A DNA stretch of 54,514 nucleotides from Chromera velia (Eukaryota; Sar; Chromeraceae), in contig JAHBMJ010000183.1 in the NCBI GenBank assembly GCA_018398765.1, positions 1 through 54,514 on the forward strand, written 5' to 3'. The first letter of the stretch is position 1. Each line of letters begins with the position of its first letter. The position numbers and the translations under genes are program-made. Shown here one piece after another: positions 15,724 to 54,394 of this stretch. The notes beneath the pieces were generated by a model. The model ran no database searches. It was not told the origin of the DNA and saw nothing but the letters and a program-made list of their open reading frames with translations.

Positions 15724-15760
<37 letters not shown>

Positions 15761-18700
15761 ACAGACAGAGATCTTCCTGCACACACGCACACACACACAC
15801 ACACAATCACAGACAGAGACAGAGACAGAGACAGAGAGGCAGACAGTCGCACCGTGAGGTCATCTCCTTTTGGTTCCACCAAATGATTGGTCTGGTACAC
15901 TGCGACGCGGGAGCTGTCGGGTATGTACTCCGGACAAAGCTCTGCATGCAGACACAAAGGGAATCAAGAGTTGACTCGATGCCTTCAATCCACACGTTGG
16001 GTATCGAGTGCGCCCTCGATCGGGTTCACAACTTTCAACAAGAAGCTGGCCGAACATAAAGGGAACGGAAGGTGGCCAACAGGAAAGAAGAGAGGGCAGA
16101 AAGAGTGTGACGGTCTGCAACGGGCCTCACTCGCACACAATGAATTCTCCCATGAATTGATCGTCTGCTTCTGAAAACGACGTACTGCAAGATGGAAGAT
16201 CATGACAAAATGAATTGTGCCGAGCGACTTACGCGATTCACCGTTCAGGGCATTCAACTGCTGTATCGATATCTCGACTGACTTCTGCAGACCATGGTAG
16301 ACCCAATCCACCTGCCCCCATTGCAGACGAGTCTGTCCTTCCAGGGTTCCCCTTCGACTTTCGGATAGAAGGTCTTTTGGACCTCCACGGCTCCATTGTT
16401 CTCCACAGTCATCTGACGGCAATCATCGAATGAATCAAGGGATTCATTTTTTTATTTGTAAACAGACGTGACAAAGGCGCACAAATAAAGGGAGACAGAA
16501 TGTAGAGAAAGACATGGAAATGCGCAAAAAGTGCACATCAAACACAGAGCATGCCAGTGAAAATCGACAAAGAGACAGGCAAATGCTTCCACCCCTCTTC
16601 TCCTAAATGAAATCTCTTACCGGTCCGTAGCCAGGTTTGCATTTCAGTGTCGCTGTCGCTCCTGCTTTAAGATACTCCTCCATCTCGCCATACAGATCAT
16701 ACTCGAGTTCATATTCCTGCATGCAGTTCATTTGATTGTGTACGCAAGTGTACCGAACCATGCAAGAGACTTGAACAGGCGGTGTGCACAAATGAATGAA
16801 GAGATCCACATGATGCACATAGAGAGACTTTCCTGCAATCTGTCTGGGTGATCGATCTTCAGTTAAAAAACAAGGTAGGAGAATAGAGCAATCATTTTGT
16901 GCATCCGCACACAAAGAGACTGAGGGAGGCGTGGGGGAACCCAGGTGGCAAAGAGGCTCCAAAGGAAGACATCAACACAACGACTCAACCGACCAACCTT
17001 CGAATCCACAAGGTGATGAATACCCTCGTCTTCCTCAAAAAACTGGCAAGACTCTGCAAACAATTCAGATAGGGGACAAGCACAGTGTCCTCACTTGCGA
17101 GGGCTGGTGTCATTTGATATCTGGTGAAAGGCTTATCTTGGCTGCGTTATCATTCCTGGAGCAAGGCAACGAAACAAACACTAGAAGATTAACTACTGCG
17201 TCCCGTCCTTTTCTCCCCTCACCAGCTTGAGTATTCACATCCATCAGACACACAAAGAGATGGACTGACTGTCGCAAGCGATTGAGGGAAACTCCCACCG
17301 TCCGTGAATGCAGGTCAACTCCTCGGTGGCGTTCCAAATTGAACTTCTAGAGGAGTACCGACTGTCGATGTTGCACCGAATCTGCAAACGGCCACACGAT
17401 CAATCACGAAAAAACGTGAGCGCACTCACGGCATCCACACCCACAGCATTCATTTTTATTCACAACGTTCTTTTTACTGTGCATCAAAATGAATGAATGA
17501 ATGAATGAATGAATGAGAGCTCACTCACGGCGTCCACACCCACAGACGCTTGTATACACAAGAAACATGTCTTTCACCGACGGCACCCACGGACAGAAAA
17601 AAAAAAAACAAGAGAGAAGCAGAAGGAGAGGATGAGTACAAGGCGGAGAACACGAACAGGAGTTTATGCGAGGGACAGAGAGAAAAACGGGAACAGCAAT
17701 AGAAAAAAAGACTTCCTTCCTCTTTCCGACCGACCTCGACTTTGCTTCCATGGGGGGCTGTGAGTCCCCTTCTCCACTCGATGTCGTCTGGCACAATCAT
17801 TTTGAGTTTGTGAAGTTTCGGATTGAAGTTTCGCCATTGGGTTTCGAAGGGAGGGCACTTGGCTGCACAAACCATGTATGATCGGTAGTACCGATCCATT
17901 GAAGTTTGCTTCACAGACACACGCGCACACACGGAGAGTGAGAGAGAAAGTCAGAGATCCAATTCTCAATATTCAGGCGGACACGTTTCCTTTGTGCGGC
18001 GACGGTGGACAACCCTTTCCTCTCATTGCCTTCTTTTGCTCTTCCTCCCTGTATGCATGCATCTGTGTTTAAGTAGGGGAAAGCAAAGTCGAATAAACTC
18101 CAAAGAAAAAACGAATCAAAAGAATTCACCCCCTCGAGATCCACTCCCCTTACCATTCCATTCCATTACGCGCACGCGCGCGCGCGCGTGTGTGTGTGTG
18201 TGTGTGTGTGTGCACTATGGGAGCAAGAAACAACAGAAGAATGAATTAGCACGAGCTCCTCTCCCCCCCGCTCCCGTTTCTTCCCCTCCCCTCCTCACAC
18301 ACCCATGCACTCCCCTCACCATTGCATTGCAAATCGACTCTTTGCATCATGCCGTTGTTGCACGAGATTTGAACGTTCGAAGGAGAGATGGCCCCGGCAG
18401 ACTGCCCATACCCAGCGGCGCACATCACGTTGACGGTGTGGCCGTGCCGGAGTCCGGTGGGGAACTCTAGCGCCAGGCTGACGGCATGCAGGCGAGCAGG
18501 CAGACAACGGCAAGCAGCATGCACAAACGCTTTAAGCAGAGATGGAGGAAAGAATGAGTCCAGGAAAGAAAAGAAGAACGTGGCAGGCACACGTACATGG
18601 AAATGCAAAGCGACCTCCATTTCACAATTAGACATACACAGTTGAAGGCAGATGGATGGAAGGAAGGGCAACATCTCAATTCAAGCTTTCGCTGCAAATA

Positions 18701-18988
18701 GGTCATCCTCTAGCTGTGGGAGTTGCATTGTCTTTTTCTCTTTCGCCTTTAGTGGAGTGTTTTTCGCACCTCGACACACCGATGGGCACTGCGCAATTGA
18801 GCAAGCAAGCGATCAAATAAGCAAAACTTTGCCTGAGAGTGATGAACTGATGAGTGTTTTTGTGGCAGATCAAGAAAGGGCCTGACAAACGAACCGCGCA
18901 AGTGAGGGGAAGTACTCGTAGCCGAGGCCCTTGGAGACTGGAAGAGGGCACCTTCCTGTACAGACACACAGACACACACAAAAGAATG

Positions 18989-19029
<41 letters not shown>

Positions 19030-20072
19030 ACACACAGAGAGAGAGAGAGAGAGACTGACTGTAGCAGACGATTCTTCTGTCCATCCAGACCCCGTGGATG
19101 CACTCCAGAATCTCATGGTCGAACATCACAGGTGTGCCGTCTGCCAGGGCAGCAGTCGAGAGTTGCTCCTCGCACCTCACGTTGACCATCGACCTTTCCT
19201 GTGTGGTCCCCCCAATCCGCGTGTAGATGTACCCCTCTTCCTGTCTGGAGAACTCGGGACACTTGGCTGCATGCGGAAATAATTATATGAATGAAGCGGG
19301 GCACGAAGAACACGAAAGGCTCTGTGCATAGAAATCAGAACACTAAGGCAAACCGAGGTAAGTCAAAAGCGTCGAGAGACAGCGAAAGAAAAATTGTTTG
19401 CGGCCTGGCGTGCAAAATTCATGCTTTGTGCCGAACCTGAACGCATCTTCTCTCTCTAGCTTTCATGTATGCACTGTTGCAAGTTATCCGACATGTAGTA
19501 CATGGAAAGGCGCCCGTTTCGGCCGAAAGGAATACAAAAAGACAGACACAGGGAGAGAGGGACAGCTTTACGAACAGAAAAGCGAATGGAATCAGAGACA
19601 AGCTTGTGGAAAGAAGCCCCGCGACGTACCTCTACAGAAGATGGAGACCTTCTGAAAGGCGCCATTGAGACACACATTTATTTTCATGCAGAATACAGAA
19701 GAATGCAGAAAAAGAGACGTACCTCTACAGAAGATGGAGACCTTCTGAAAGGCGCCATTGAGACACGAGAGCACTTGAACGTTCTCCCTGTCCAAAGGCT
19801 CCGCGTCGTCTCTGCACTCTACGCGCACCATCCCCCCTGGCTTTGTGGCCTCCTCTACCGTCCCGACAGTTCGAACAATGTACCGCCCTCCCATTTTCAC
19901 CACATCTTGTCTGAGTCCATCTAGGTTGCAGGGGGCTGCAGGGAGACAAGCAGGCAGGCAGGAAGGAAATGAAAGGAAAAGAGGAGACATACATTTGCAT
20001 CATCTGGAATTTCCATCACAGATGAGAGAAGAAGCAAAACCTCAAAAAAGAATCAAAAGGAAAGCGAAGGGA

Positions 20073-20107
<35 letters not shown>

Positions 20108-23100
20108 CGCTGACTGACGGTGGCATCGCAACAGCGGCATGCTGAACGTTCCCCATCTGCACTTCATCTCCCCCATGTTCTCCTCGTTGGCCGTTCCTGG
20201 AACCGGGAAGGTGCCGTCCTCGCACTTCACGTTCAAATCGACCCCATGGGACATCGGCAGGCCCCTCCACTGCATCTCTGGCCCTGTGTTTTCGTATCCC
20301 ACAACGCGCATGTGGGACTTTGAGTGGATTGGCACATCCTCTGGCCGGCAGTCCTCTGTAGGCAGGCAGGAGGCAGATCATCCGAGAGGTCGATAAGTGA
20401 GTGGAATGATTTGCAGGGAACGAGGTCAATATGGAACAAGGGGGCGGTTTGTGGGAAATGCAAGAAAGAATCTGTAAGTGGAGAAATGAGAACCATCAAG
20501 ATGCAATGTATGTATAAGAGAGGAGGAGGGCTAGGAGCAGGGTGAGAAAATTCGCGAGCTTGCGTGTAAGTCAAATGGAAAGGGCGAAGGACACACGCAC
20601 CTGCGCAGACAAGCCAGAGCTTTGAGAATTCGCCGTCGTCGCAGAGGACGGGAGAGGGCTCCGATCCACTCGAAGGACGCCAGCCGTCCGCGCACTCGAC
20701 GTACATCTTGCTTCCATGCGGAATGCGGGCACTGTTGAGGGACACGCGAGGGGGGGTCTCCGTGAGGTTATAGCCCCAAGGGGGGAAGTAGAGGCGGGGG
20801 TCATCATCCGGTCCTGTCGCCTTCTTCTGTTGGATGCAGGACTCTGCAGAGGTAGGGGGAGAAGCAATTTTGCGTGCGTTAATGAACTGTTTTGTTTTCA
20901 GCTTGTACACACAAAGGTTCGCATGGAGCTGTGCCACAGCTGCACAGACGTCGCATCGTCTTCTCTTCTTCGGTGTAGGAAGAGTGGGAAAAGAGGAACA
21001 GAAAATGAATGGCTTTGAAAAGCATTAGAGACGAAAGAGGACGAAGATAGAACGAATCCGCTGGCCATACAGTACCGGAGCAGGCAACAGGGCAAGGTCG
21101 AGAAAAAGAGACAAAAAGTGCTTAAAGCCTCGCAAACAGAGAGAGAGACACATGCAGACTAACTCTTGCACTGAAGGTCAAAACGCATCCACGCGCCGTC
21201 TTCACAAAGCGCAACGCCCGTTTTTTCTTTCGTGATAGGATGCTGGAAGTTCGTCTCATTGCAGACGACGCGGAGGGCGTGACCGTGATGTGCCGTCTCG
21301 TTTGGCCCCACAGGATTCTCAATCACGTATCTGCAGACATCAAAATCAGAAATAACGAGACGAAGAATGATTTTCAGTCACTTCGCCACTATGCATTTCC
21401 ACACAAAGACCGGTCTTTAGTAAATGGCTATAGAAAGTAGGGGAAGTCGTGTCCAAGAAGAGAAGCGTATGGAAAAATGTTCACGGAAAAGAGGAGGGAG
21501 AAAAGCCTGGACGACTCAGAAAGAAGAGGACGGAGACCGGAAAGTGGAAGGCAAATTTACGACGAATCCAAAAGGCAAAAAAGAAACAAAAGGAAAGAAC
21601 AAGAAAGACCCCCCGGAAAGCCACAGACAAACAAACCTGTTGTTTCGGATGTCGTCTGGGAGCATCTTGAAATCCGGGCAGTCCTCTGCAGATAGAGAGA
21701 GAGAATGTGTAAACGCATTTTATTTCATACAAAAAAAAAAAGAATTCCGGGAAGTCCTCTGCAGATAGGGAGAGAGAATGTGTGAAAAGGAGAAACAAAT
21801 CTCAATGTACACAAGCAAGAATGGCCTGGGGATACGAGAACACATGAGAAGCGCAGGCGGTTTCGTCGGGATAAAGCTGGACTGATTGAAGCTCCTTGAA
21901 TCCGGTTGAAGAGGCAAATGTGGAAACAAAATGGTTCAGCTGGTTATCCATGAGAAAGTTGGCGAGGAACCAGGATGGGGCAAGTCAGTTCTTGTGAGGA
22001 GGGGGGAAAACCTTTATTGGAAATGATGCACTATGCGTGTATCCACTGTCACGATTCAATCCGACCCCACTGTTGCCAACGAGCATCGACAATTTGAGTA
22101 CTTACATGCATACCTATACAAGCACACGCTCACATTTTTGTGTGTGCAAGCAAATGAACACACATTGCTGTAAACACCATCAGACGCACTCACTGACTCT
22201 TGCAGACAAGTGTCAAAGGTTCCCACTCTCCGTCTGAGCACGTGAGCGTCTGTTGCTGCGCCACCTTCCCCGTGAGGCTTTTGGGTCCCTCCACTCCGTA
22301 GTGGCCCTCCGTGCACATGACCTTGATGCTGTCTCCGTGCTGCGCGCCTGCGTGGTCCTTGCTGAGTTGGTATCTCACGAGGTCGGGGGCAGGCATTTTG
22401 TTGCATCCTCCTGCACAAATACATCCATCGTGGAATGAAGGGGGGGGGTGCTTTCAATGGTCATGGTTGGGGTGACCTGTCCGGCTGGAAGTTCGGATTG
22501 AGTGCAAAATAAAAGGTCCTTATGACTTGCTTCCGTAAAAAGAGGCCTCTTGGGGAAGTGTGCATGTTGGTGCGCTCTATTTTCAGCATTTCCGCGCAAA
22601 AGAAGGGAAAATGTATGTAAATTTCCACTTGCGTTTTCCAGTGCATCTCAGAAACACTTCAGGAAAGTGCTTGCAATGAGGCAAGAAAGGCCACAAGAAC
22701 ACGAAAAGAACAAAAACAAAAAGGGAAAAGAACCACTCTATTTCCGTTTGTCTGCTTGCTCGCTCGTTACAAAACCGAAAATGTTACGACTGTTTCTCTC
22801 TGTCTGTATAGCTTTCATTTCCTCTTCCCCAGAAGAAGAAAACCCGACTGACTCATGCAGAGGAGCGTCAACGGTGAGAACATTCCATTGACGCACGCAA
22901 CCTGCGCAGTGTTGTACCCCGTGTCTTCCGGTTTGGACTCCTTACACCCCTTTCCCCCGTCGCACTTGACAGGGGAGAACCCTGCTTCGGTGTCACACTG
23001 GAACCTCCAAACCGCTCCGTGGGAGGTGTACGGTCTGTTCGGGTTGCTGCCGTCGTGCACAAGCTCGCGACTGTACCCTCTTCTTGCATTGGGCAGGTCA

Positions 23101-26100
23101 CCCTCGGCGCAATCGCCTGCAATGCGAAAGAAGAGGAAAGGGAAAATGCTTATTCTGGGAGGCAACAGACAATTAAGGGAAAAAAGGGGACAAGGGCGAA
23201 AGAAAGGAAAGAGTGGAAGAAGGGAGAAGGAGATGGATGTGAAAAAGAAGAGGAAAGGAGGGAGTCAAAAAAAGAAAGCAGGACGGAATGACACAAGCGA
23301 GGAAAGCAGCATATTAGGTAGCAAGGCTTCGCACTCTCACTAACGTCGGCAGATGAGGGTCCGTGCCGTCCACAATCCGTTGACGCATCGCACCACCTGC
23401 ACGCGTTCCTCTGTGGCTGATGAGGCCCTGTCTGCGCAGGTGATTTCTCTTTCATTGCCGTGTTCTGTCCCCCTGCCCTTCACCGAGTACTCTGGGAAAT
23501 GTTCCAGCTCTGTGTACTCTGGACACAGCGCTGCAAGAAAACGAAATTATCAGAAAGGTTATTGTGTTGCCTTCTCTTTCATTCACAAAAAAGGGAAAGA
23601 ACAAGGAGCAAGGATGCATCAAAAACATGGAAGACTCAGAAACACAGGCGCCTCCCTAACCAACACACGCATTCATAGTCTCGACTGAATGGGTGGAAAT
23701 CGGAACAACAAACTGCGACAAGCTACCACCATAAGACGTGGTAGTCTCAGTGCAGATATAAATCGGTTCAACGATTAAGTCTAATGTTTACAGAAAGTCG
23801 AATGAAAAGGAACTTACGAGCGCAGGCCAGCGTCCTAGCAGACCATTCCCCCTCAATGCATCGAAGAACGTCAACTGCTGCTGCTTCGTTGGCCACCTCT
23901 GCATCCTCCCCCTCGCCCTGTAGGGACAAGCAAAGGTTGACATGCAGCGTTTGATCTTCGGTGGGTCTCTTCCTCGCTCTTCCTTTTTTGCATCCCTTCC
24001 TTTTGTTTTGTCTCTTCTCTTTTTTCTCTTTTCTTTTTTCTGCTTTTCTTGTCTTCTTTCCGTCTCCGCGCCTCTTGCACAAAGAAAAAGAGAACACAAA
24101 AAAAGGCAGGGAGCAAGCAAAGATAGGGGCGGTCCCATCTGACAGTTTTCTTTTCCATTCCCGCCCTATACTCAGTCTCCTTCTTTCTGAAACCTCCAGC
24201 GACCAGAGAAACGCAGAATGCTAGAAGTAAGGCAACGACGTGTCAAATGGCCCACGTAATTGATCTGTGTCTCTTCTTTTTTGTTCTGTTCATGGCTGCC
24301 TCCCCATTGTCCCCCTCACCCACCTGCAGGAGACTCGAGGAGGAGAAGTTTGCTGCACACACAATGTTGGCCTCTGCGCCCGGATCAAATTTGAGACGGT
24401 CTTTCATTTCCATTGCCGGTGTGAAGGTCTCCTTGCCGGGATCCCGGAAGGCGACCTCGTAGGCTGGACTGCTGAGAATGTCCATGATGTCTTCACGGGA
24501 ACAGACCTCTGCAGGCAGGCAGGCAAGGAGAAGGAAATTGTTGCATACGTGCACAAATGCAGCTATTTGAATATATATGTGTGTGTGCGCGCGCGTGTAC
24601 GCGCGCGTGCGTGTGGATGCAGGAGTGTACGCAATGTCTCGATTTTTGTGCTTTCTGTTGGATACAGGGATGGATGAAGTCCAAAAAAAGATTGAGCACC
24701 GTTCTCCACATCTAAACATGCGTCTGAATCACCCGACGCCCCTCCGTTACTCTGCGGTTGTCTAAGTTTGGCTGTGACAGCTGTCTGTCTTTTCCATGTG
24801 GCCGCATAAGAGCCGTCCATGCACCTTCCTGGAGAAAGGAGAGAGAGACTGACTTTCACATGTGAGGAGCAGTGAAGAGAAGAATGAGAGCTCGACTCTG
24901 TCTGCCTGCTGGAGGTCTGGGTCACCCAAGCAGCTGATCTGCTGCTCCTTCCCGATCTCGCTCTCGATTGCTCGGAAACCCTTCTTTTTGTTGCACCTGC
25001 ACACATGAACACATAAACATGGTTGTATACGTACATGAAAAACACAGAGAGACATACCCATGAACGAGGACTAACATGCACCCCCCCACGTGTACACGTA
25101 ATTTCTGTATTGCACACACACGCATGTACACATGCAGTGGGGTAAACCTCCACGAGCACGCACTCGCATACACCCACCCACACGAGACATTCAAAAATAC
25201 ACGCTCACACACATATATTCAAAGAGGTCACCACATGCGAAGAAAAGTAAATCTGAAAGGGCCTATGCTTCAAGTGTTTATTATGAAACCGCAAAAAACA
25301 AAATCCAGTTGATCGCATATTTTGTCTGTTGTATCTTTCAGTACTCGTATTTGTCAGCTCGACTTTCAGGCACCTTATCCCCGTCTGTGTTTCTTTGAAC
25401 ACCTTCCCCTCTCTCGATCTGCAGCTGACTTGACGTTAATCTTCGTTCCATAAGAGATCTCTCGAGGCAGAGATCCGGCAATGGTCTTTCCCTCCGTGTC
25501 GGTCATCTGGGGGATGTAGGGGCCGTGGCAGCCCGATCCGTCAGGCATGGGGTCGCATAATTTTGCGTAGAGGTCCGTTGTCGGGCAGTTCTCTGCAGTG
25601 TGGAATTTGAAAGAGAGCAGAGATGGGCAGGCAGGCAGACAGGGACGTATGAGATTGGCTGGACTGCCGCAACACAAAAGAACTCCAGCGGGTAACACGA
25701 GAAGGTTTTTGAAGAACGACGACGGATCTCTATCCAGACATGCCTGGCTGGCTTTTCTTTGCAAGAACAAAAACAAGGTCGTTCGATGATTTGTCGCATC
25801 ACTTGGATCCCGGACTCAGTGGAAGTCTCCACAAAGGTTCCTAGAGTGCTATCTTTTCTTTTCCCTTCTGCTGGTCTCCTTTTTCTTTTTCTTTTAGAAC
25901 AGCATGATATGGAATGCTGGTCAAAGATCCTATTTGCCAGACTGCTGACTCACTGACGTTTGCACACGAGCGTCTGCAGTGACCATTCTCCGTCGATGCA
26001 GAGAAGCTTCTCTTTCCGAGAGACCCCCACAGGGCTATATCCAACCTTGCAGCTGATCTCACGAAACGCGTCGGCACCGAAACCAGAGTCCTGCCCACCA

Positions 26101-26419
26101 GATATGTTGTACGCCTTTTTGTCGTCCAACGAGAACATTGGACAACGACCTGCTCGGAGCGACAAAGAAGGAAATTCGAATATTGAGAAAAACACACAAA
26201 TATAAATTGGCCCGTCCTTCGCAGGAGATCAGGAATCCTGCCTAACGCGTCATCGAAACAACAAAGAAAAAGGCAGGCGCTCATGAGAAACAGATTCACT
26301 GAAGAACGAAGATCACACTCGCAGTTGGAAGAAACGAAGTATCGATCCTCCTTACGACCCAACAAACGTGGGCAGACAGTTGACCTCAAGAATATTCCTG
26401 CATCTGATTCATGGACGTG

Positions 26420-26453
<34 letters not shown>

Positions 26454-28492
26454 CGCACACACACACACTCATCAAATCAAGCACAGAGGACGGGAGGGAC
26501 TTACGATGGCAGTCCAACTCGAGGGCTTCGTAGGATCCCTGCAGGCACTGGATCTCTTGGGACTCTCCCTCCTTTCCGTATCCTTCTTTGCACGTGACAA
26601 CGGAGACAGACCCGTGAGCGTTCCCTCCGAACTTCACTTCATACCGATCCGACACAGCGGGCGAAATGGGGAAAGCCTCAAAGGGGGGGCATTCAGCTGC
26701 AGAATCACAGACAGAGTGAGAAACGGAATTATTCATGTGACGACGGACTTCAACACATATCACACGCACAAGGTTAGTTTCTCACTTTTTCTCACTTGTC
26801 TAAAACCCAACCGCCTAGCTGTCCGACTCACCGAAGCACTGCAGTAACAGAAAGTCCCACACGCCTTTATTTTCATACAGAATTTATTTTAGTACAGAAA
26901 AAGAATGCATGCACCGACTCACCGAAGCACTGCAGCAACGGAAAGTCCCACACGCCTTTATTTTTATACAGAATTTATTTTAGTACAGAAAAAGAATGCA
27001 TGCACCGACTCACCGAAGCACTGCAGCAACGGAAAGTCCCACACGCCGCCCCTGCAGTAGACTCTCTCCTCCTTCGGCCGAGTGCGTGTTGATGCAGGAG
27101 CGTACCCTTCTTCACAGACAATGGGGATGAAATCTCCGTAGCGAGTCGCCTTCTGGAGATCTCCAAGACCGAAACCCTCCTGCAGTCTGTAGTGGCCGTC
27201 CGTCGGCATCTCAAATGCCGGACAGTCAAGTTGGCAATCCAGCGTCTGAGCTCCCCATTCACCGTCAGCACACCAGACAATCTGAGGGTCTGTGCCTGTT
27301 GACTTCGAATACCCCTCTGCGCATGTGACGTTGCGAGTTGCCCCATGTCTGAGAGACCCGGCGCCCCTTCTGGGGGACACCACATACGCACCATTCAGGT
27401 CTGTGTACTCTGGACAAAGAGGGTAGCAGGACAGGGCAGGTTTAGTCCACTCCCCGTCGATGCACGCAACCGTGCGAGAGGTGTCGGTAATGCCCTCGGC
27501 AGGCGCCGTTCCCCCAGGGCAGACGACCTGCAGCTGGGTGTTGTGCCTCCTCGACTCTGTGAAACCAGCCACGGCTAGCTCGGGGGGAGGAGAGTACATC
27601 GTTGTGCAGTCAGCTGCAGAGATAGATGAGGATGTTGCAGACAGGCCAAACATAAAAAGAAGAAAATGCAGGAGACGAAAATAAAGTGACAGAAACGCAG
27701 AAAGTGAGACAGGACAACCCGCAGTATATCATTTACACAGACATAAGAGTAGAAAGCAGAATGCCTCACTGTTGGACCGACTGGCAGAAGCTTTTTCTCA
27801 TTTTCCACTGCGTGACGCAAGCAGGCCTCTTCTATAATTGAAGTTCATGCAGCACCAGGCCCATTCAAGGCTTCTTATGCACCTGGCCATCCGGGCTTTC
27901 CCATGTTCTTCCAGCAAGTCCTGAAAAAAATGTCCCTACACATACAATCGCACACGATTGCCCACTCCCACAAGAGCTCATCTTTTTCAAACTCACCCAT
28001 GCATTGAATTGTGGGGATTTCCCACTCTCCCTTTCCCTTGCACATGACGACCTCGTCCTCCCTCGCCGGATCGTTTGAGGAGAATCCCTTCTGACAGGAG
28101 ATCCGTCTCCAGTCTCCAAACCCATTCCCATCACTTCCCCCCACCAACAGATGCCTTGAGAACGTCTGGAGGTACTCCTCGAACATCGGGCACTTCGAGT
28201 GACACGTGCACGAGCAGAGGTTCTTCGGGTCGTTCAAGGGATCACAGTCCTCCCCTCCCTCCAACTGCCCGTTGCCGCATGCAGTTGTCCTGCCTGCAGG
28301 CAGCAGTAAGGGAGGGGAAAGGATGGGAGCCATCCCGTCCAATCCAAAGAAAGTCATTCATTCATACGGAAAAGGCAGAAGTGAAGAGACTGCTTCTTCG
28401 TCTTCTTCTTCTGCCCCTGTCCTCGCTGTATGCATTTACTTTTATACAGAATTCTTTCATACGGTAAGAAAACAAAAAAGAAAGACTTCTTC

Positions 28493-28524
<32 letters not shown>

Positions 28525-32294: not shown

Positions 32295-32326
<32 letters not shown>

Positions 32327-38237: not shown

Positions 38238-38276
<39 letters not shown>

Positions 38277-41200
38277 ACGAGACAGGAAAGACGTTGTTGA
38301 CACTATCGAGGTCGACACTACAGGCACTGCCTTCCGTCACGCAGACCTCGTGGAACTCTTGGAGGCATTCGCGACTGCTGCCGTTCTCTCCGGAGTGACG
38401 GGGGACGAAGCTTCGGATGACAAGAAACTCTTCTTCCTCTGTGGGGCGTATCCGGTCAGTCAGTCAGTCAGTCAGTGAGCAGATGCAAAGCCTATGTGTA
38501 TCTTTAGATGCGTTCTGCGTGGAAACGAGAAGATTTTTAAGGACTTGAAACAGGAAAGACATAATGAGAGCATCGTTTCCTTTGGTTGAGTGCAACCAGT
38601 GTGTTTCCATGGGACTTGGAGTGTCCTGTGGGGTTCTTCCTCCAAGTTGCCGAGTCTCTTATCTGGACTCCAGGTGTTCTTTTACAGTACTCCTCCCGCT
38701 GCTGGGAGACTCACATACATTCTCTCATACATTTTTGAGTGCTTTTGATTCTTGAAGAGCGCCGTAGAAATGCTCGCAGAGGCCCCCTTCAGACTCGTCT
38801 CTTTGATCGGATGTTCTCTCTCTCTCTCTCTCTCGACTGCATGCCTGATTCATTGCAGCTGATTGCTTACGAGTCCCGCAAAGCAGCGATGGAGGCCGAA
38901 ATCCCTTTCGACAAAAACGTCCGGAACGCAAAATGGCTGGAACTTTTCGGCAGATGCAAGAGGAAGATGCCTCTCTCACTCGAACCCACAAAGGTCAGTC
39001 AGTCCGTCAGTCAGCCAGATAGGACGTCTCATCATTTGATGCCGATCCCAGTCTTCCAAGTCTCTCTCCCCATGTTTTTCCCAAAACGTTCGTTCAAGTT
39101 TCAAAGACAAACCTGAGTGTGCCATGCTGCCTCTTGTGCTTTCTTGCATACTCGACTTACGTATATGTGTATGCAGATAGGGCATCAGAGAGACGCATGT
39201 ATGTATGTATGTGTGTATGCAGATAGGGCATCAGAGAGACGCATGTATGTGTGCATGTGTGTATGCAGATAGGGCATCAGAGAGACGCATGTATGTATGT
39301 ATGTGTGTATGCAGATAGGGCATCAGAGAGACGCAGAGATCGATCCAGTGGATGAAGACGAGACCGCAGACATGGTCCGTGAGTCAGTCAGTCAATCGGA
39401 GCATGCATTGGGCAAATAGATAGACAGAAGGGGTGATGAGAAAGTCTAAAGAAGAGCGTTGTGCGGAAGAACCATACGTGTGTATCTGTTTTGGGAGAGT
39501 GAAGGGTGGTGCTCAGGAAAGAGTGAACAGCAGGACAACTCTTGGGTGCCCACTCAATTGTAAAGAGCTTTTTGTCTTTGTTTCTTTTCGTCTTCGCTTC
39601 TTTTTGTCTTTGCTTTTGAAGAGTCCTCCCCTTTTTCTGCTTTGCTGCTGCTACTGTCACTGTTGCAGGTGAAAGTTCTGATCAAGTGCGGCGCGTTCAA
39701 GCAGAGTCTTACCCTGCTTGCGGAGGCACAAGTAGCAAGAGAGAGAGAGCTGCGTGCTCATCTGTTCAGAATGCTGGGAGGGAGGGGAACAGGAGGTGTG
39801 GCAGTTGGTTTTCCTGTCCATCAGCAGCCTTCTCAGGAAGAGGAGGAGAAGCCCCTGAAGGGAGTCCCTGCATTGATTGCAGAGGAGGATGAAGGAGAGG
39901 AGGCGCAAGGATCCCCTCAGCAGCAGAATCGGTACGGCATCCGTCTCTCCTCCCACGGGACTGAAAGCATTGAGCATATAGTGCAAGGAATGGGGGATGT
40001 GCTTCAAGAACTTGACTCGAAGAGCGTGCAGGAGGAAGAGGAAGAGATGCATGAAGAAGAGAGAGAAGAAGAAGAGGAGGAGGAGGAGCAGGAAGAGCAA
40101 AACTCAAGATCACGACCAGAAAGTAGAAGAGCATGGGAAGATGCAGAACAAGAAGAAGAGCAAGAGAAAGAAGAGGAGGAGGAGGAAGCGGCAGAAGAGG
40201 AAAGTGCAGGTCCTCAAAGTGCCGAAATGGAAAATCTAGCAGACGAATTACGAGATGAAGTGGGGGGACAAGAGAACCAGCACGCCAAGCTCAGTCTATC
40301 TGACGGTGTAGCATCCCGCTTCCTTGAAGAGATGGGGTCGGATTTCGTAGATGAACTCCAAGCGGACCTCGAGGATGACCCCCCGGGGAATGTCGACGGT
40401 CAAATCGAAATCAATTTTGATGGAGAACACGAAGCACCTCCCCCCCCAACTGTGGGAGGAGATAGTGAGATGGGTTCGGTTGATGGTGAGGTAGGCAGGT
40501 CCATGACTCGGGGCGTCGCCCCCCCCTCCTCGTTTTTGGGCCCCAATCCCGGCCCTGGTGTGTCTCAGTACGGCCCTCCTCTCGGCAGTTCGGAGGATCA
40601 CGAATCGAATCTGGAGGCTTTCCCGAAATCCCACTGGGCCCATATCTCAAGTCGCAGTCAGAACATGAAAGAGGAGATTCCGGAAGAGGCAGAAAGGGAT
40701 TTGGGATCTGAAAAGGCAGAGGTTGCGGAGGCGGGGGCAGGAAAGGCACGTGTGATTTTGCTCCCTCCCAATCCCGCTCTCCGCTTTCGTGCACGAATGC
40801 GGGTGTGGGAGCTTCCAAAGGGGAGGCGCGCAGATGACGAGGAAGAAGAAGAGGAAGAGAAGGAAGAAGAAGGAGAGGAGGAGGAGGAGGACAGTAAAGA
40901 AAGCGAGGAGGGATCAAATGCCCCCCAGGTGGCTGGCAAAGGAGGAGAGGAGGATGAGCTGAGATCGTCCTCATCTCGCTCTAACAAGAGTGGAAAGAGT
41001 GGAAAAAGTGGTGGAAGTAAGGGAAGTAAGGGCAAGGGTAAGAAGAAGAGAAAAAGTCTGTTCCGTGCAGGCAGCTCCACCGAATCACTAGGCACAGATG
41101 GAGTTCCCCAAGTGCCCATCCTCCTGACCATCTTCCCTCACTTCATCATGGTCAGTGGGCTCTTTTGTCTCGTCGGCTTGTCTGCATACACACCTCTTTT

Positions 41201-44401: not shown

Positions 44402-44479
44402 GGAAAACCCAGGGCGGGGAAATGGCTGTATAAGGAAAACCCAGGGGGGGGAAATGGCTCTATAAGGAAAACCCAGGGG
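44384..44479. repeat. 32-bp tandem triplication across the stop codon
   Basis: The unit GGGGAAATGGCT.TATAAGGA starts at 44384, 44416 and 44448. The TAA in the first copy ends the polycystin-like protein, and later copies carry the same TAA in shifted frames. Poly-G grows from G4 to G10 between copies. Confidence 0.9.
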
Positions 44480-46300
44480 GGGGGGAAAGCCAACAGTCTT
44501 CATTTGTTTCTGTCTTCTCCGTTTGTTCTTCTTGTTCTTTCTGCCCGATGTCTCGCCTCGGTTGACGGTCAAAGTTTTTCGCAACAAAGAGGCCAGACAA
44601 AGGAAAGAAGGGACTGAGGAGCCACACACACATATACACACACAGACACACTTGTTGCGGACTAAAAAGTGGGCATGTATTGCGTAGACGGAGCAGAAAA
44701 AAAGAAAAGAGATCAGAGGGGAAGGAAAGGGAAGGGATTGGAAGGGGAGGGGGAATGTCTTGCTTCTTTCCCGTTTCACTCCGTCGATTCACTCGCTGCA
44801 GGTCCACGTCAAACAGAAAGAAATCAAAACACATTAATACAGCAGATCGACAAAGAAATAGACGAAAAAGCGAAGATTCAAAAGGACGTGGATAGGTGGC
44901 TGGAAAGATGGGTGGTTATCTCAACTGCTTCCTTCTCTCTCTGTAAGATGGTGTTCCGGTATTCATCATCTCTTCTTCACTTGACCTCATCAAAAACTTT
45001 CTCCTCCAACGCAAGAACGAGCTCACGACGGAACAAATGCATATGAATGACTTCAATTCGATCAGAAAAAAATGACCGATCTAAATTCGAGGAGTTTCTC
45101 CTTCCCTCAATCCATAGGATTGTGACCCTTGCTTCTTCATTTTGCGTCCGACATCGAGGAATGAAGTCGCATTGCCCGTGTTCCTCCCATCTCTTTCTCT
45201 CCCCCCCTCTTCCCCTCTCCAGCACTCTTCTCCTCCGCCTTCCTCTTTCCCTCTCCGGCTTGACATATTCCCTTCACATCCTCCCCCTTTTTCCTTCCTC
45301 TTCGTTTTTCCTTCCTGTCCCGACGGTCCCGCCTCCCCCCCCTGTTTCCTCTTTGGCTTCCTGTCTGTCCGTGTCTGTCGACTCGAACTGGGAGGAGAGG
45401 AAGGTGAATTGAGGAAGCGCCCGTCGATGCCGACGCAGATGCAGGGTTGGGGGATGGGGGGACTGAAAAGAGAGAAAACGGCATTGTCTGAAGTTTCATG
45501 CACCTCCGTGCGTGCAGACACTCCTTGTGCCGAAATGAGAGAGAGAGAGAGAGAGAAACAGACGCGTTGTCAAACAGACGGAGAAGGGGGTCGCGTGCGG
45601 ACAGAAAGAGAGAATGCAGATAAGCAGAGGGAGAGAGTCGGTGACATCTGATCACTTTGTCTACTTCCACTTCGATCACAATCGGGCACGCATCAATGTC
45701 TTTTTCCTTCACTTCGTTTATCTTTTTCAATCCGCCTTTTTTTTTTTTTGCTGTCAGTGGATCTGTCTGTCTCCATGGATGGATGGATCTTCGCCCGATT
45801 TGATTTTAAATTTCAAAATTCAGCTTCGTCCGTCTTTCCTACAAACACTCTGGCTTAAGCATCCATTCATCTGAATTAATGCTGTCTTAGGCACTCGATC
45901 ATTCCATCACATGCCCTCCCATGCAAACAGACAGAGAGACCGACAGACAGACAGGCAGACAGGCAGACAGTGTCTCTGTCGTGTGGTGTGGTCTGAGGGG
46001 TTGAATCCACTCGACCGATCACACATTTGGGAAAGAAAATTGACAACAAGACCTAGACCAGGCAGATCGACATGGAAGTGGAGAGAAAGAAAACGCCTCT
46101 CGGAGCAAAAAGGAATCTACTGCAGAAATGTCAGGCTACTGACGAATAGAAGGAGAAAAAAAGAGTGACAGAGGAAAAGTCGTTTCAACAAGGCTGAATT
46201 TGAAGAAGCGCTGAGACGTTCTAATCAAGGACAAAGGGATTTCTTTGGAAGGAAGGAATAAGAAGACTCTTTAACTCAAAAAGTTACGAAGAAAAAAGGG
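44402..46300. other. Gene-poor spacer with low-complexity DNA
   Basis: Contains purine-rich 44690-44760, pyrimidine-rich 45180-45360, (GA)n at 45537-45556 and (GACA)n at 45920-45970. A weak plus-strand exon-like piece at 44957-45074, after CTGTAAG, would read LDLIKNFLLQRKNELTTEQ and end at TGA. Another at 44840-44895 reads QIDKEIDEKAKIQKDVDR. Both look helical, but no complete gene could be built. Confidence 0.35.
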
Positions 46301-46317
46301 AGAAGACGAATAAATGA

Positions 46318-46415
46318 ATCTGAGTCACGCCTATTGTAAAGCGCCTTAGATACATTCAGAACTCAGAGACAGTGTCTGAGCGGCTGAGCCACACGTTATT
46401 CCAAGTCTTTCTTGT
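46318..46415 (-). mobile_element. Possible tRNA-derived SINE fragment
   Basis: On the minus strand TGGCTCAGCCG fits the Pol III A-box consensus exactly. About 20 bases later GAGTTCTGAAT is a weak B-box. A tail reading TAAGGCGCTTTACAATAGGC resembles 3' ends seen in some SINE/LINE families. No poly-A or target-site duplication found. Confidence 0.25.
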
Positions 46416-46565
46416 TGTGGAGTCTACTACTCAGTAATATCTGAGGTCGTTCAAAAATCACTTTTCATACAATATATAATCAAATAATCCGATTCAAATT
46501 TACAATAATTATTACTCATCTATGAGCTTCTTTTTACCTCCTTAACATACTACCGAACACTTGAT

Positions 46566-46618
46566 CGTGGAATTAAGTTGCTGGGGCGGCCCGACTTAAT
46601 TACCAGTGATATTCCACG
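46566..46618. other. Strong hairpin-forming sequence with weak 5S-rRNA resemblance
   Basis: Nested arms: CGTGGAA (46566) with TTCCACG (46612), ATTAAGT (46572) with ACTTAAT (46594), and GGG with CCC at the tip. The wider stretch 46543-46640 has CATACTACCGAACACTTGATC, GGAATTAAG and GGATGACTCCGGGA, which recall 5S rRNA segments in the right order but with poor overall fit. It could be a degenerate 5S copy or an unrelated palindrome. Confidence 0.35.
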
Positions 46619-47632
46619 CCGGATGACTCCGGGACGAGTTGATAGCTCTTCAGTTCAAGTGTCCTATAGTATGAAGGAGATTTATCATCACCATACGCCA
46701 TTATTATTATTGATTGGTATATAGGCCATCATGCAATGCATGACTTGGCAGCATGAGTCTAGGACACTGCATGTTGTATTGCCCCTTTGCAATGAACTGG
46801 GAAGAGGGGTGGAGGGTTCTGGAGGCAAATAGCTTCCGTCAAAAGGAAATGCCGCATACAAACATAATCAATCCTATAAAACTAAGTTAAATTCCCCGGG
46901 AATTTAGTGGAATTTAATGCAATTTACCCTTAAAATTTAGTGGAATTTGGTGGATTTTAGTAGAATTCACCATAATTTTGACTTACGATTTTTGATAACC
47001 GGGTCGACATTTTTTTTATTTATAAAAAAAAAATGTCACAGGCCTTTAAAACTAGCCTTTAAAAGTTAATGTTTGCTTTTAGGCGTTTTAAGCCCGCTTT
47101 GTATACAAATTTCTATACAAATTTTCAACTTCATACTCCATATACTTCTTGAGATCCACTAAGCAGACTTTTTCAAAATCGTAAGTTGACTTTTCAAAAA
47201 GGTAAGCTAGAAGGTAAGCCAAAATGTCTGATAACCAGACTTTTTTGTTCTAGTTTTCATCAGACATTCTTTAAGATGTGACCAAGCATATAGCTTATAA
47301 AGATTAGTACTAGGAAAAGGTTCAAGGTTCAATGTTCAAGTTTCACTTCAAAGTAGTGAACCTGAATCAGGTTTAAATTTCAAAAACAAGTTCAAAAATA
47401 GGTTTACTTTTAATTAGCGCAAACTTGCAGTTTAAATTTTGATACTGCATTTTAACTTTTTATATGTTTGTTTAACGTTTTACTGCTAGTTTTAGTGCTT
47501 TAAACACTGCTTTTTAGTGCTTTTATTTTGTTTTTTAAACAAAATTTCTTTTAAAAAAGATATAAAACTATTAAATCTAAAGATTGTGAAACTTAAAAAG
47601 AAAATGTAGGTTTGAGCTAGGCGTATCATAGC

Positions 47633-47881
47633 AAACCCCTCTGACACTCCAATCTGTCTTAAAATGGATTTTTCAATGCTGGCCGTGCCTGCAGCGCGGT
47701 TCTTTCAAGACTCTAGTCAAGACTGTCTGCGCCTTTCACAAAAAAATTTAAGTATACTTTATTTTGGCCATGCCTTCGGCGCGCTACCTTCAAGTTAAGC
47801 CGAGCCTGCGGCGCAGGCGTTTCAAGTATGGCCGCGCCTACGGCACGGCGTTTCAAGTTTACTAGAGTGTCAGGGAGGTTT
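47633..47881. mobile_element. MITE-like element with 19-bp terminal inverted repeats
   Basis: The left end AAACCCCTCTGACACTCCA and the reverse complement of the right end AAACCTCCCTGACACTCTA match at 16 of 19 positions. Inside are four degenerate GC-palindromic repeats of the type GGCC.CGCCT.CGGCGCGG followed by TTTCAAG (47681, 47766, 47799, 47830). The flanks are AT-rich. No clear target-site duplication and no coding capacity. Confidence 0.5.
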
Positions 47882-49564
47882 CACAGAAAAAAAAAAAAAG
47901 TAACTGGAAAATGGTCTACATTATTTTTTTATTTTTTTTTTTCATATCCTACACCTTAAACTAGCGTGCTAAAAAAAAAATAATGATGATCCCTAGTGAT
48001 GATCTATAAAATATAGTATATGTGAAGCGTTCGATCAAAGGAGGCCTGGTCCCTGACCTAGTCCCTAACCAATGTGTGCAACGGTGTGCAATGTTATATA
48101 ATAATGTAAATACGTACGAAAAAGGGCAGGAAGTCCCTCTAGAAGTCCCTTTTCTTCTTCCTTCTCAGAGAGATGGCCGACTCCGCTGTGTCACTCCTAT
48201 GTAGGAGGGAAGAAAACTATGAAAAAGAGTTGTCTCGATCGGTTTTGATCCCATCAATCTAGATATTATTAATGGAGGGACGAGGCTGTATGTAGGATGC
48301 CATTGGAAGGAAGAAGAGGAGCATGCATTGGGAACAAGAAGACGAGGGAGAAGGAGACGAAGAAGAAAGCGCTAAATAGTTACGCCTGGCTGGCACAGGC
48401 CTCGTCGATTTGGAGAAGACTGACTCGTTGAACGACGTGCTTCAGTTATCAACGTTTCGGGATGAAACATTGTATGACGATGAAGACTCTGATGGTGATA
48501 ATGACAGTAAGCAGGAAAACAAACGAAAGAAAATGTTTGAAAGTAAAAAAGAAGCTATGCCTAGAGAAGGAAGAAACGAGTCAGACGAGAACGTTGGAGA
48601 GGAAGGTAATAACAAAGAAAAGAGAAGAGGGCGTCAGCAAGTTCAGTTGCCAATGGGTAGGAAAGAAGACCTTGTTTCTTTTTTTATAAAGAAGCTTTGG
48701 AAGAAAAAAGAAAAGTGAAAAAAAGTTGGGAGCACAAGCTCAAATCTTGCAAGGGAAGGAGACTCGTCTCCATGATCACGTTCAGGCAGGATCTTCTAGC
48801 TCTAGTTCCAGCTTTGCAGACCCGGCAGATGATGGTTTGCTTGGTTAAAAGCTTGTGTGCAAATCTTTAAAAATCTTTGAAAGCTATAACGTTTACACGT
48901 TAGTAGAAGCCCTAGCTAGAGCCTAGCGAGAGCTAGAGCCGGCTAGAGTGAGAGCTTAAGACTTTTTAACTAATGATTTTTTTTTTTCACTTTAAGTTTT
49001 CTACTAGGTTTTCTAGTCGCAAAAAAAAAAATAACTGAACATTGGCTTTAATTATTTTTTTTTTTTCTGTGATAGGCCTAAGGTTTGAGTACCGTTCAAT
49101 GCTTGGTCCGATTTATTAACTGGTCCGGCTGGCCTAGGGTCCGGCCTAACTGGCTCTAGAACTGGCCTTCCTGCCGGCTTGGCCTAGCCGGGCCAGGCCC
49201 GCCCTAGCGGCCCTGCCCGGCCTTGTCTACCCCCCGGGCCCCCTTCTGGCCGGCAGCCACCTCTGGCTCCCTTGTCTAACCTCATCTACTCTTTAACTCC
49301 ACCGTGCGTCCGGCCTATAACCTAGTCTGGCCCCTAAGTCGGCGCTTTTATGGTTCGCTTTAGGGTTTGCTTGACTCCAATTACCCGGACCCGGCCAGAA
49401 AGCGCAGCCATCAATAGATTAAAACAGTTAAAAACAGTTGTTATTTAGTAAATTAACTTGCTAGACACCCAACTCCGGCTCTTTATTTCTCTTAAGCCGC
49501 GGACGGCGCGCGCCAGCCTGGTTAGGCTTGTCCTAGTGGCGCCGTGCATGCATAGTCCTAGCCA

Positions 49565-49635
49565 TGGTCTCGAAAACAGGTTCAAAACAGGTTCACCAGG
49601 TTCAACAGGTTCAAATCAGGTTCAACAGGTTCACT
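49565..49635. repeat. Degenerate CAGGTTCAA tandem repeat
   Basis: About seven copies of AGGTTCA(A/C), each separated by a few bases. Scattered AGGTTCAA-type words also occur at 47318-47400. Confidence 0.8.
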
Positions 49636-49850
49636 TTTTCAAATTTGAACCTTTTCTAAATAAACCTTTTCCCAGTCCTAATAGAGATAAATTTAATATA
49701 AATTCTCTAGTTTTTTAAAAAACAAAATGAATAGTTTATCAACTTGATCATCATGAGTCATTGCTAGCTTGATTGGTCGAGTTTTTCACTAGAGTCACCT
49801 CTAGAGTCACCCAACCTAGCACCCAACGCTATATAGGAAGTCTTGTTTAC

Positions 49851-52619: not shown

Positions 52620-54278
52620 TTATCGTGGAGGTGGGGGCGTTCTGACAGGGGGGCTTTCGCTGGGCCTCACGGCCCGACTTCCTGTTGAAACCGTACAAGC
52701 AGCAACAGCAACAGGAGGAGGGGGAGAAGAAGAAGAGTGCAACAGAGCTTCGCCACCGACACCCCCGGCAGCATCCCCACCAGAACCCGAACCCCTGAAT
52801 CCCTCAACCCCCCGCGTCTCCATTGCAGGGGGCGAAGCTGTGGCTGCAGAAGAAGCTGCAAAGGAAGAAGACGAGGGGTAGGAAGGGACACAGGTCGACG
52901 CGACAGCTGCACCCCGCAAAATGTTCCTTTCATTCTTCACTTTCTCTTTAACGTTCTCTTCACAAAGCAGCAAATCCTCTTTTCTTCCTGTATCCTTTTC
53001 ATGGGGTGCGAATTGCCCCTCCGAGAGATTTTGCGGTTCTCCTGAAGCATTCGATGCAGGAGGAGGGGAGGAAGAAGACGAAGAACAAAAGGAAGACGAG
53101 GGCACTTCTTTTTCTCCTCTGCACACATCCCCCTCTTCCGTCTCCCTCTCTGTCTTATCACAACCAGAGACAGAGACAGAAAAAGGGACCCCCAACTCTC
53201 CTACACGAGACTGAGCCTCACATTCTGCAGGAACCTGTCTCTCTCCTTCCTCCTCACCGTCCTTCTCCTTCCTCATCCCCCTCTCTCTTCCCTCTGCTTC
53301 CCCGATTCCCTCCACCTCTGGAGACGGCTCCTTTCCCCCCAACGGAGGGGACTCTGAAGGAGAAGAAGACACACACACAGCCGCCCCCCCTTTTCCCTTT
53401 CCGTCTTCGCCTTCCTCTCTTCCACTGGCAGGAAGAGAGTCAGGACCGGAAGAAATCGTGCCGCCAGAGAGCACCGTGAAGACGTCGGACAAAAAGGACA
53501 GGACCTCCTTAGGATCAGACAGGATGTGGGAAGCCGCAGTGGGTCTCTCCTCTCGGGACACCAACACCGACAGCACGTTACTCGAGTGCACTCCCGAAGA
53601 ACTCCTCAAAGCTCTGAATGCGTCTTCGTCTGTCACATCGTCCCCTGCATGCATACGTGCGTGCGTCAATGGATTAATTCAGTGATTCTGTGTACAAGCA
53701 TTGAAGAACGAAATGAGAAGTCGGTCTCGACAAGGGTGGAGGGATCTTTCTTTTCTTTGCTTTCTTTCCCTTGCTTGCTTCCCTCCTGTTGGAGGGATGC
53801 GTCGGATATGATCATTTATTCACCCGTCTTTGTGAGGGGTGTTTTGTCTTTCTTCGGAATCTGCTGGCCTTTTCAGAGTCGTCACGGTAAGGTATCTTCT
53901 GCCGACTCTTGGCTGTCACAGAATAATCTTGTGATTCCGAGAAAGAAATGGAGAAAGGAAGGAAGGACATTTCCTTTCCTGGTTTCTTTGCTCCTTCATT
54001 TCAGGCACAAAACTCGAAACGGTAGAAAGAAATGCATCTTTGTCTGGTTTATCCTTCCCCTCGGATCACCCGTGCACCCACCCACGGACCTGCATATACC
54101 AGAAAGACAGAGTCGTCATAAGCAGAGACCCCGGAGGCCTCCAAGAGCCAGAGGACCGCCCTGCCCTTGTCCCAGTTGACGTTGATGCGCAGTTCGAACA
54201 CACACTTCCCGAAGGACTTCTTCAGACAGGGGTAGCGAGCGATCACCTCGTCAACGCACGACTCCACGAACGGAACTT
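52620..54278 (-). CDS. Trehalose-6-phosphate phosphatase domain protein, C-terminal exons (5' part outside window)
   Basis: Two exons are visible: 54278-54090 (phase 1 in, phase 1 out) and 53644-52620, which ends in TGA. The first gives FELRINVNWDKGRAVLWLLE, the substrate-contacting motif of the phosphatase (E-x-R...KG-x-A). The junction makes VFLVYAGDDVTDEDAF, the GDD-x-TDEDAF acidic motif that binds Mg. SVLVSREERPTAASHILSDP and EVLSFL then finish the HAD-type fold. The enzyme removes phosphate from trehalose-6-phosphate. The nucleophile motif and any TPS domain would lie upstream, beyond base 54514. After the domain comes about 270 residues rich in Ser, Glu, Pro and Gly with no recognisable fold, an unusually long tail. 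The acceptor for 53644 is GCATGCAG and the donor at 54089 is GTCCGT. Confidence 0.85.
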
Positions 54279-54283
54279 CTGAA

Positions 54284-54394
54284 GGATCTACATTTCTGCA
54301 TCATCCACACATCAAGGTGCATGCGTTCATTTTTTCTGTATGAAAATGAATTCGTATGAAAATGAATGGATCTACATTTCCGCTTCATCCACAC
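54284..54394. repeat. Direct duplication flanking AT-rich insert, opposite orientation (locus F)
   Basis: Copies GGATCTACATTTC.GC.TCATCCACAC lie at 54284-54310 and 54368-54394. The insert between reads TGCATGCGTTCATTTTTTCT, then GTATGAAAATGAATTC and GTATGAAAATGAAT. It is in the intron just upstream of the trehalose-phosphatase exon. Relative to that gene the insert is inverted compared with loci B-E in the sushi gene. Confidence 0.85.

Follow-up and report, generated by a model that had tools for sequence, protein, structure and literature searches.

Very short inserts, most of them palindromic at their ends, make up a large family in the nuclear genome of Chromera velia that has been active recently. 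Most of the single copies examined are flanked by long direct duplications of the host sequence. The family was recognized in the window, a stretch of 54,514 nucleotides of C. velia DNA (contig JAHBMJ010000183.1, assembly GCA_018398765.1), at six loci, here called A to F. All six loci, which had been proposed in an initial annotation, were present; A to D and F lay within a few bases of the positions given there, and locus E, a low-complexity site with a TTC run, was recovered within the span proposed for it by a separate alignment, outside the list of ungapped pairs. The ungapped scan of the whole window produced 14 near-identical direct pairs, five of which were loci A, B, C, D, and F. The motif TTCTGTATGAAAATAAAT matched the window at eight positions with no more than 3 mismatches, against a mean of 0.08 in shuffled sequence, and none of the eight matches lay outside loci B to F. 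The two copies of the duplication at locus B were identical over 51 bp, as had been stated. The motif was on the minus strand in B to E and on the plus strand in F. Locus A showed no clear motif orientation and fitted the family at its outer ends only, while locus D was already an array, with three copies of a 43-bp target and two inserts.

The genome search suggested by the initial annotation, run with the core motif against an assembly of 177.8 Mb in 4040 contigs, returned at least 2424 matches with no more than 2 mismatches (1190 + 1234), compared with 16 (6 + 10) for the reversed control. These counts include tandem arrays and both arms of single inserts, with 2.05 matches per site in the sample, and the independent insert sites genome-wide would be fewer, perhaps about 1000. 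The published assembly of C. velia is given as 193.6 Mb in 5953 scaffolds, with about 30 Mb of transposable elements (PMC4501334), and the assembly searched here would lack part of those scaffolds. The loci fetched for analysis were picked with the motif or a small number of variant patterns and do not form a random sample of the genome. A gapped scan of the fetched DNA identified 168 sites, which comprised 33 arrays or complex sites and 135 single sites, and four of the 168 were in the window (B, D, E, and F). Two short inserts resembled the family at their outer ends only, L037:1614 (ATTCAT...GAATGCA, 33-bp duplications) and L029:526 (...AAATAAATG, 24-bp duplications), which suggests that the motif search captures only part of the family.

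Flanking duplications were found in most copies, as had been anticipated. Among the single sites, themselves chosen by motif, 108 of 135 passed a filter set at score 36 and entropy 0.78, which excludes pairs below about 18 bp, compared with 6 of 300 random positions, and four of these six were located in overlapping fetches of real arrays. With the entropy filter off, pairs were found at 134 of the 168 sites and at 35 of 300 random positions, since false pairs are common without the filter because of microsatellites, and at entropy 0.82 the figures were 103 of the first 146 sites and 3 of 300 random positions. The filter drops low-complexity targets, including that of locus E, and the retained set therefore leans towards exon-like sequence. 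In the 108 sites, the duplications were 22-79 bp long (median 38, 5-95% range 26-56) and the inserts 24-104 bp (median 62), with no correlation between the two lengths (rho 0.08, 86 sites). The duplicated copies were identical in 16 pairs, and the median identity was 94%. An earlier ungapped scan had found a flanking duplication at 68 of 84 exact motif instances; nine of the loci behind the 16 misses were inspected, and four of them were tandem arrays (L033, L053, L057, and L061), one had a slipped duplication (L055), and one had a duplication of about 13 bp when inspected by eye (L048). Microsatellite slippage, which the initial annotation had named as a competing cause, was ruled out as the whole explanation by the entropy-filtered controls and by non-repetitive identical duplications of 51-55 bp. 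In the tandem arrays, of the form (duplication-insert)n, the units were roughly 70-115 bp (L057 on C709, L053, L033, L045, and L108). These arrays resemble a CRISPR array turned inside out, in which the spacer is conserved and the repeat is host DNA.

Each copy consisted of one or two arms around a centre, the arms reading (TGCA)n-TTTATTTT-CATACAGAA-(TTCTTTTTCATACAGAA)n from the outside inward. Among 110 arms, the order was (TGCA)n-TTTATTTT-CATACAGAA-TTCTTTTT-CATACAGAA, beyond which the consensus was lost. The fading was gradual, with TTC in 60 arms, the further TTTTT in 43, CATAC in 18, and AGAA in 17. The inner 17-bp unit was able to repeat, and a pattern of three successive units had five matches in the genome with no more than 3 mismatches, three of which were read (L166-L168). 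The outer end was present in inverted orientation on the second side in 71 of the 108 sites, forming terminal inverted repeats, and the other 37 had no recognisable second end. In the first 86 sites, a second inverted end was found in 61, compared with 2.6% of shuffled inserts, and two exact 14-nt arms spaced 0-30 nt apart gave 32 matches on 23 contigs of the genome and none in the control. Of the 39 inserts that could be typed on both sides, 33 agreed, 27 of them being of the common type. Five hand-picked two-armed inserts were predicted to fold as strong DNA hairpins (z from -4.7 to -8.5); loci B and D of the window folded weakly or not at all (z of -2.4 and +0.7). Many of the inserts, which the initial annotation had described as often doubled, were inverted-repeat structures and not simple doublings.

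The inserts were a patchwork of motif and AT-rich DNA. Motif pieces made up 65% of the insert bases, compared with 4% in shuffled inserts; as the sites had been chosen by motif, this value shows that the remaining insert is motif-built too and not how frequent other fillers are. Apart from motif pieces, the centres were unshared between copies. After masking of the motif, residual centre pieces matched their own locus over at least 8 nt in 15% of cases and other loci in 5% (54 stretches). The outer ends of the element were imprecise. Where the duplications were at least 95% identical, the right tail between the core and the duplication ranged from 1 to 31 nt (49 sites), with a length of 4 in 14 sites, TGCA in 11, and a prefix of (TGCA)n in 25, and the left tail ranged from 0 to 26 nt in the 27 sites having a left core. 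Microhomology blurred the edge of the duplication by some bases.

The insert had been said, from the orientation of locus F, not to be simply a splice signal; this holds, yet the duplications often straddle splice junctions. TGCAG, read from outside to inside and starting at -3 to +4, was located at 24 of 216 duplication edges, compared with 2 of 216 farther out (-25 to -18) and 10 of 216 farther in (+10 to +17), and the edges are thereby enriched for 3' splice sites. Within the duplications, TGCAG was present in 37 of 86, compared with 16.4% of entropy-matched controls (p=5e-9); the corresponding figures for AGGT were 38 of 86 and 27.4% (p=0.0009). Donors of the form GTRAG were not enriched (10 of 86, p=0.64). 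In the 15 bases adjoining the edge on its outer side, T-runs were 1.3 to 2 times commoner (172 edges). An open reading frame (ORF) test of the empty sites for exon location was uninformative (52 sites, p=0.13), and a Pfam search of 30 ORFs beside inserts, with 58 sites tabulated, gave two weak matches below the curated cut-offs, which were not used. The ORF beside L002 had no homologue at E 1e-5 in a protein search and is therefore probably non-coding.

The relation between inserts and splicing was seen most directly in L049 (G000:C593:39400-41400), which contains a gene for a proteasome ATPase, the 26S regulatory subunit of the Rpt4/10B type, with two inserts of the family. The first insert is located about 45 nt inside the exon VVASGIVDKYIGESARIIREMF; the duplication around it, 49-50 bp long, reaches back to the acceptor TGCAG. 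The first copy of the exon reads into the insert and then meets a stop, and the remainder of the exon follows from the second copy. The second insert comes 11 nt after a donor, which is included in the 40-bp duplication around this insert. The four joined exons matched protein P0004 of C. velia CCMP2878 at 100% (91 of 91 residues); no other match among the 120 listed reached 100%, and the match indicates that the searched assembly belongs to this species. P0004 contained neither insert and no duplicated residues. By our reading, P0004 is a transcript assembly (mmetsp is among its sources, and its longest contig has 1663 bases). The removal of both inserts by splicing is thus supported at the protein level, in this one gene. 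Both introns exist apart from the inserts, and the duplication only spans the intron edge. Many insertions, we think, fall in or at exons and persist if a splice site is part of the duplication, and such survival would yield the enrichment at junctions without a nuclease that reads splice sites. Alternatively, junctions may be targeted during transcription.

The two sources first considered for the inserts, a tiny mobile element with very long target duplications and the repair of staggered breaks with a filler, each agreed with part of these observations, and the truth looks like a mixture of them. A mobile element is supported by the spread of the family over the genome, the inverted ends, and a separate duplication at each site; the variable length of the duplications, the ragged outer ends, and the unshared centres suit a staggered break with extension of the ends better than a transposase. 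We propose template-primed extension of both 3' ends at a long staggered break, and give this mechanism an even chance of being correct. The cuts in the two strands would lie tens of nucleotides from each other and leave long 3' overhangs, and each 3' end would be extended on one short template, a small RNA or DNA, whose own 3' end reads ...TTCTGTATGAAAATAAATGCA. The two extensions would then meet and be joined by microhomology or end joining, and fill-in of the overhangs would create the target duplication. Exonic copies would survive if the duplication carries a splice site, with the insert and one copy of the exon piece spliced out within the pre-existing intron, and later unequal exchange between the duplications would generate the tandem arrays. 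Since both target copies are complete, both 3' ends must have spanned the target, which by geometry implies 3' overhangs of the length of the duplication or an equivalent nicked state. Extension followed by end joining would also explain by one process the same end on both sides, the variable (TGCA)n tail, the truncated inward extent of the arms, and the unshared join. That the inserts represent a new class of insertion, in which a dedicated enzyme makes cuts in genes that are spaced by tens of nucleotides and both 3' ends are extended on one small template, is a more tentative proposal, and we would sooner expect it to fail than to hold.

Several observations weigh against this mechanism. The inverted ends are equally expected of a terminal-inverted-repeat transposon, and where at least one of the outer ends was a variant (12 inserts), the two sides matched in 6 and differed in 6. 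The centres are private only beyond the motif; when unmasked, they were alike through motif copies in 90 of 2850 pairs at score 28, compared with 2 in shuffles, and the motif-masked residual stretches, a set without a shuffled control, scored 30 or more in 3 of 1431 pairs, all of them GTAT-type repeats. Some tail lengths came from a mis-assigned core, which somewhat overstates the raggedness of the ends. Plain CAG showed an unexplained asymmetry, being more frequent at the left edge (31 of 108) but not at the right (13 of 108), with counts of 15 and 20 outside, and TGCA without a following G was not enriched at the edges (9 edges, compared with 11 outside and 13 inside), which leaves priming on TGCA as such unsupported. 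The filter was failed by 27 of the 135 single sites, whose best pairs were 10-41 bp and in many cases 11-18 bp; some of these may be real but short, the 22-bp minimum being a consequence of the filter. Three further loci inspected by eye, L012, L056, and L066, had no clear duplication. No empty site was found in the first 80 of 1878 pairs from an all-against-all BLAST of the fetched loci, these 80 being insert-to-insert matches or overlapping fetches. Finally, no polymerase, nuclease, template RNA, or autonomous copy turned up, though no search was aimed at a reverse transcriptase or an autonomous source.

The strongest competitor is a DNA transposon resembling a miniature inverted-repeat transposable element (MITE), in which the arms are the terminal inverted repeats, an unseen transposase makes long and loose staggered cuts, and the centres derive from aborted gap repair after excision. 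Such an element explains the inverted ends at least as well as template-primed extension does, and the exact arm pairs, the variant ends matching on both sides in half of the informative inserts, and the predicted hairpins of the five picked inserts all agree with it. Long duplications of 16-28 bp are also described for bacterial DDE elements of the IS1202 group (PMC10132070). The same element should not produce duplications that vary over so wide a range, ragged outer ends, centres unshared save for motif pieces, microsatellites, and weak matches, or more than thirty sites with no recognisable second end, and we consider it rather unlikely. Variable duplication length, ragged ends, and unshared centres are what ordinary staggered breaks would leave if they were repaired by fill-in and end joining with capture of an abundant small DNA or RNA that is itself immobile. 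Tandem duplication at breaks with complementary termini has been described (PMC8355091), new introns in Daphnia with repeats of 4-12 bp have been attributed to staggered breaks (PMC4202315), and the sharing of residual centre pieces with the own locus, a small effect, slightly favours such repair. Random filler, however, predicts neither the same arm and similar outer end at most of the examined sites nor their presence on both sides in the majority, and the motif content of the inserts shows that the filler is not unrelated from site to site; we consider this kind of repair improbable. A role as introners, in which each insert gives rise to a new intron within an exon and is retained in that form, would agree with the AGGT and acceptor-like TGCAG in the duplications, but it is very improbable given that the intron exists apart from the insert at the two protein-checked sites, that the duplicated segment at locus D includes an intron donor, the exon edges of this intron agreeing with a Vitrella homologue, that donors were not enriched, and that the characterised introner families have duplications of only 3-9 bp (PMC9860276).

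Like MITEs, the inserts are short, non-coding, and present in high copy number, with inverted ends and a target duplication; unlike them, they have duplications of no fixed length, ragged outer ends, and an interior unshared beyond the motif pieces. Introners of Symbiodinium, Micromonas, and Aureococcus and the introner elements of Amoebophrya are likewise short genic repeats, often with inverted ends, and the inserts, too, are absent from the protein at the two checked sites. Introners make introns, whereas the two checked introns pre-exist, and the duplications here are several times longer; the direct repeats of Amoebophrya introners are given as 3-5 nt (PMC7789003). Target-primed reverse transcription of long and short interspersed elements (LINEs and SINEs) also yields duplications of variable length and inverted pieces, and in the youngest class of SINE1 of Entamoeba most duplications measure 18-24 bp (PMC2996970). 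Such elements have one common end and a variable other end; in the family described here, 37 of the 108 sites had one recognisable end and 71 the same end on both sides. There is no poly(A), and the sample contained no long copies. Elements of the IS1202 group share the unusually long duplications and the inverted ends but are bacterial, about 1.5-2.5 kb in the listed examples, and encode their own transposase (PMC10132070). Intron gain at staggered breaks in Daphnia also leaves direct repeats around inserted DNA, which are shorter there, whereas here one insert sequence recurs. None of the compared systems pairs duplications this long with a recurrent palindromic insert, and the inserts can be placed as a variant of a short non-autonomous insertion family. 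We did not find the combination of a hairpin-like insert and a duplication of about 20-80 bp, often at an exon edge, for any mobile element, and no earlier description of such inserts in Chromera was found in searches of the open-licence literature or in passages of PMC4501334, PMC7789003, and PMC9860276; the word Chromera is absent from the main text of the last.

Within the window (Table 1), loci A to E are located inside the region of a multi-exon sushi-domain gene on the minus strand (about 15000-28300), which is homologous to a 1547-aa protein of Vitrella brassicaformis. A protein search for the Chromera version of this gene returned only the Vitrella homologue, with which the edge of the sushi exon at locus D agrees. 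By our reading of the sequence, the donor-like site in the first copy at locus A is a possible donor, the duplication at locus B includes an exon end called from the translation, and the acceptor-like junction at locus C precedes a sushi-type exon. Locus E is probably in an intron, and locus F would be a few bases from the predicted acceptor of a gene on the minus strand.

Table 1. Coordinates of the duplications and inserts at the six loci of the window
Feature	Start	End	Strand	Remarks
Locus A duplication copy 1 (29 bp)	17418	17446	-	93% identical to copy 2; donor-like GTGAGT on the minus strand
Locus A insert (70 bp)	17447	17516	.	ends CATTCATTTT...AAAATGAATG; no inner motif; tail expanded (GAAT)n
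Locus A duplication copy 2	17517	17545	-	direct-pair scan
Locus B duplication copy 1 (51 bp)	19623	19673	-	same sequence as copy 2; putative exon end and donor-like GTACGT
Locus B insert (42 bp), single conserved end TTCTGCATGAAAATAAAT	19674	19715	-	motif and pair scans
Locus B duplication copy 2	19716	19766	-	direct-pair scan
Locus C duplication copy 1 (42 bp)	21669	21710	-	spans acceptor-like TCTGCAG/AGGACTGCCC (slash, junction)
Locus C insert (31 bp), TTTTGTATGAAATAAAAT	21711	21741	-	motif and pair scans
Locus C duplication copy 2	21742	21783	-	direct-pair scan
Locus D duplication copy 1 (43 bp)	26823	26865	-	direct-pair scans
Locus D insert 1 (48 bp)	26866	26913	-	motif match
Locus D duplication copy 2	26914	26956	-	direct-pair scan
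Locus D insert 2 (48 bp)	26957	27004	-	motif match
Locus D duplication copy 3	27005	27047	-	sushi exon end ...WDFPLLQCF and donor GTGAGT
Locus E duplication copy 1 (41 bp, low-complexity)	28390	28430	-	alignment
Locus E insert (79 bp by alignment, including expanded TTC run)	28431	28509	-	motif and alignment
Locus E duplication copy 2	28510	28550	-	alignment
Locus F duplication copy 1 (28 bp)	54284	54311	+	direct-pair scan
Locus F insert region with TTCTGTATGAAAATGAATTCGTATGAAAATGAAT	54312	54367	+	motif and pair scans
Locus F duplication copy 2	54368	54395	+	direct-pair scan

The remaining 9 of the 14 direct pairs in the window were without the motif, six of them at 4.8-6.1 kb and the others at 35.3, 39.2, and 44.4 kb. 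The pair at 35307-35352 and 35373-35418 is a 46-bp duplication (98%) around a motif-free spacer of 20 bp, TTTTTTTCCCTGTAAATGTA, and is either a decayed relative of the family or a product of the same break process with another filler. Motif-free duplications made up 18 of 76 in the longer fetched loci, which had been chosen by motif. A minisatellite with a 46-bp unit is located at 39163-39381. An ORF of 284 aa on the minus strand at 2625-3479 contains two similar stretches, SLERLNPSQGYKVGNVQWICRELN and SIERVNNQKGYTPENCVLICGEFN, and had no Pfam match; the two stretches are perhaps reminiscent of HNH-type nucleases. The G+C content was 0.365 at 46001-48000, compared with about 0.45-0.50 on either side, and no RNA families or tRNAs were found in the window at default thresholds.

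The inserts would provide numerous recent insertion scars that are still readable, in the genes of an alga that ranks among the closest photosynthetic relatives of the apicomplexan parasites. In each scar, the length of the duplication would give the distance from cut to cut at that site, and the unshared centre would record the joining of the ends; because cuts and joins are recorded in this way, insertion and repair could be studied from sequence alone. If the inserts do represent a new class, the hairpin would be built anew at each insertion, with no transposing DNA copy of fixed ends; a template and a target would be all that is involved, and exonic copies would survive as the duplicated target brings its own splice site. 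The link to splicing would offer a simple route to harmless exonic insertions, in which the splice site is duplicated and the rest is spliced out, and it may also explain direct repeats around the ends of introns in this lineage.

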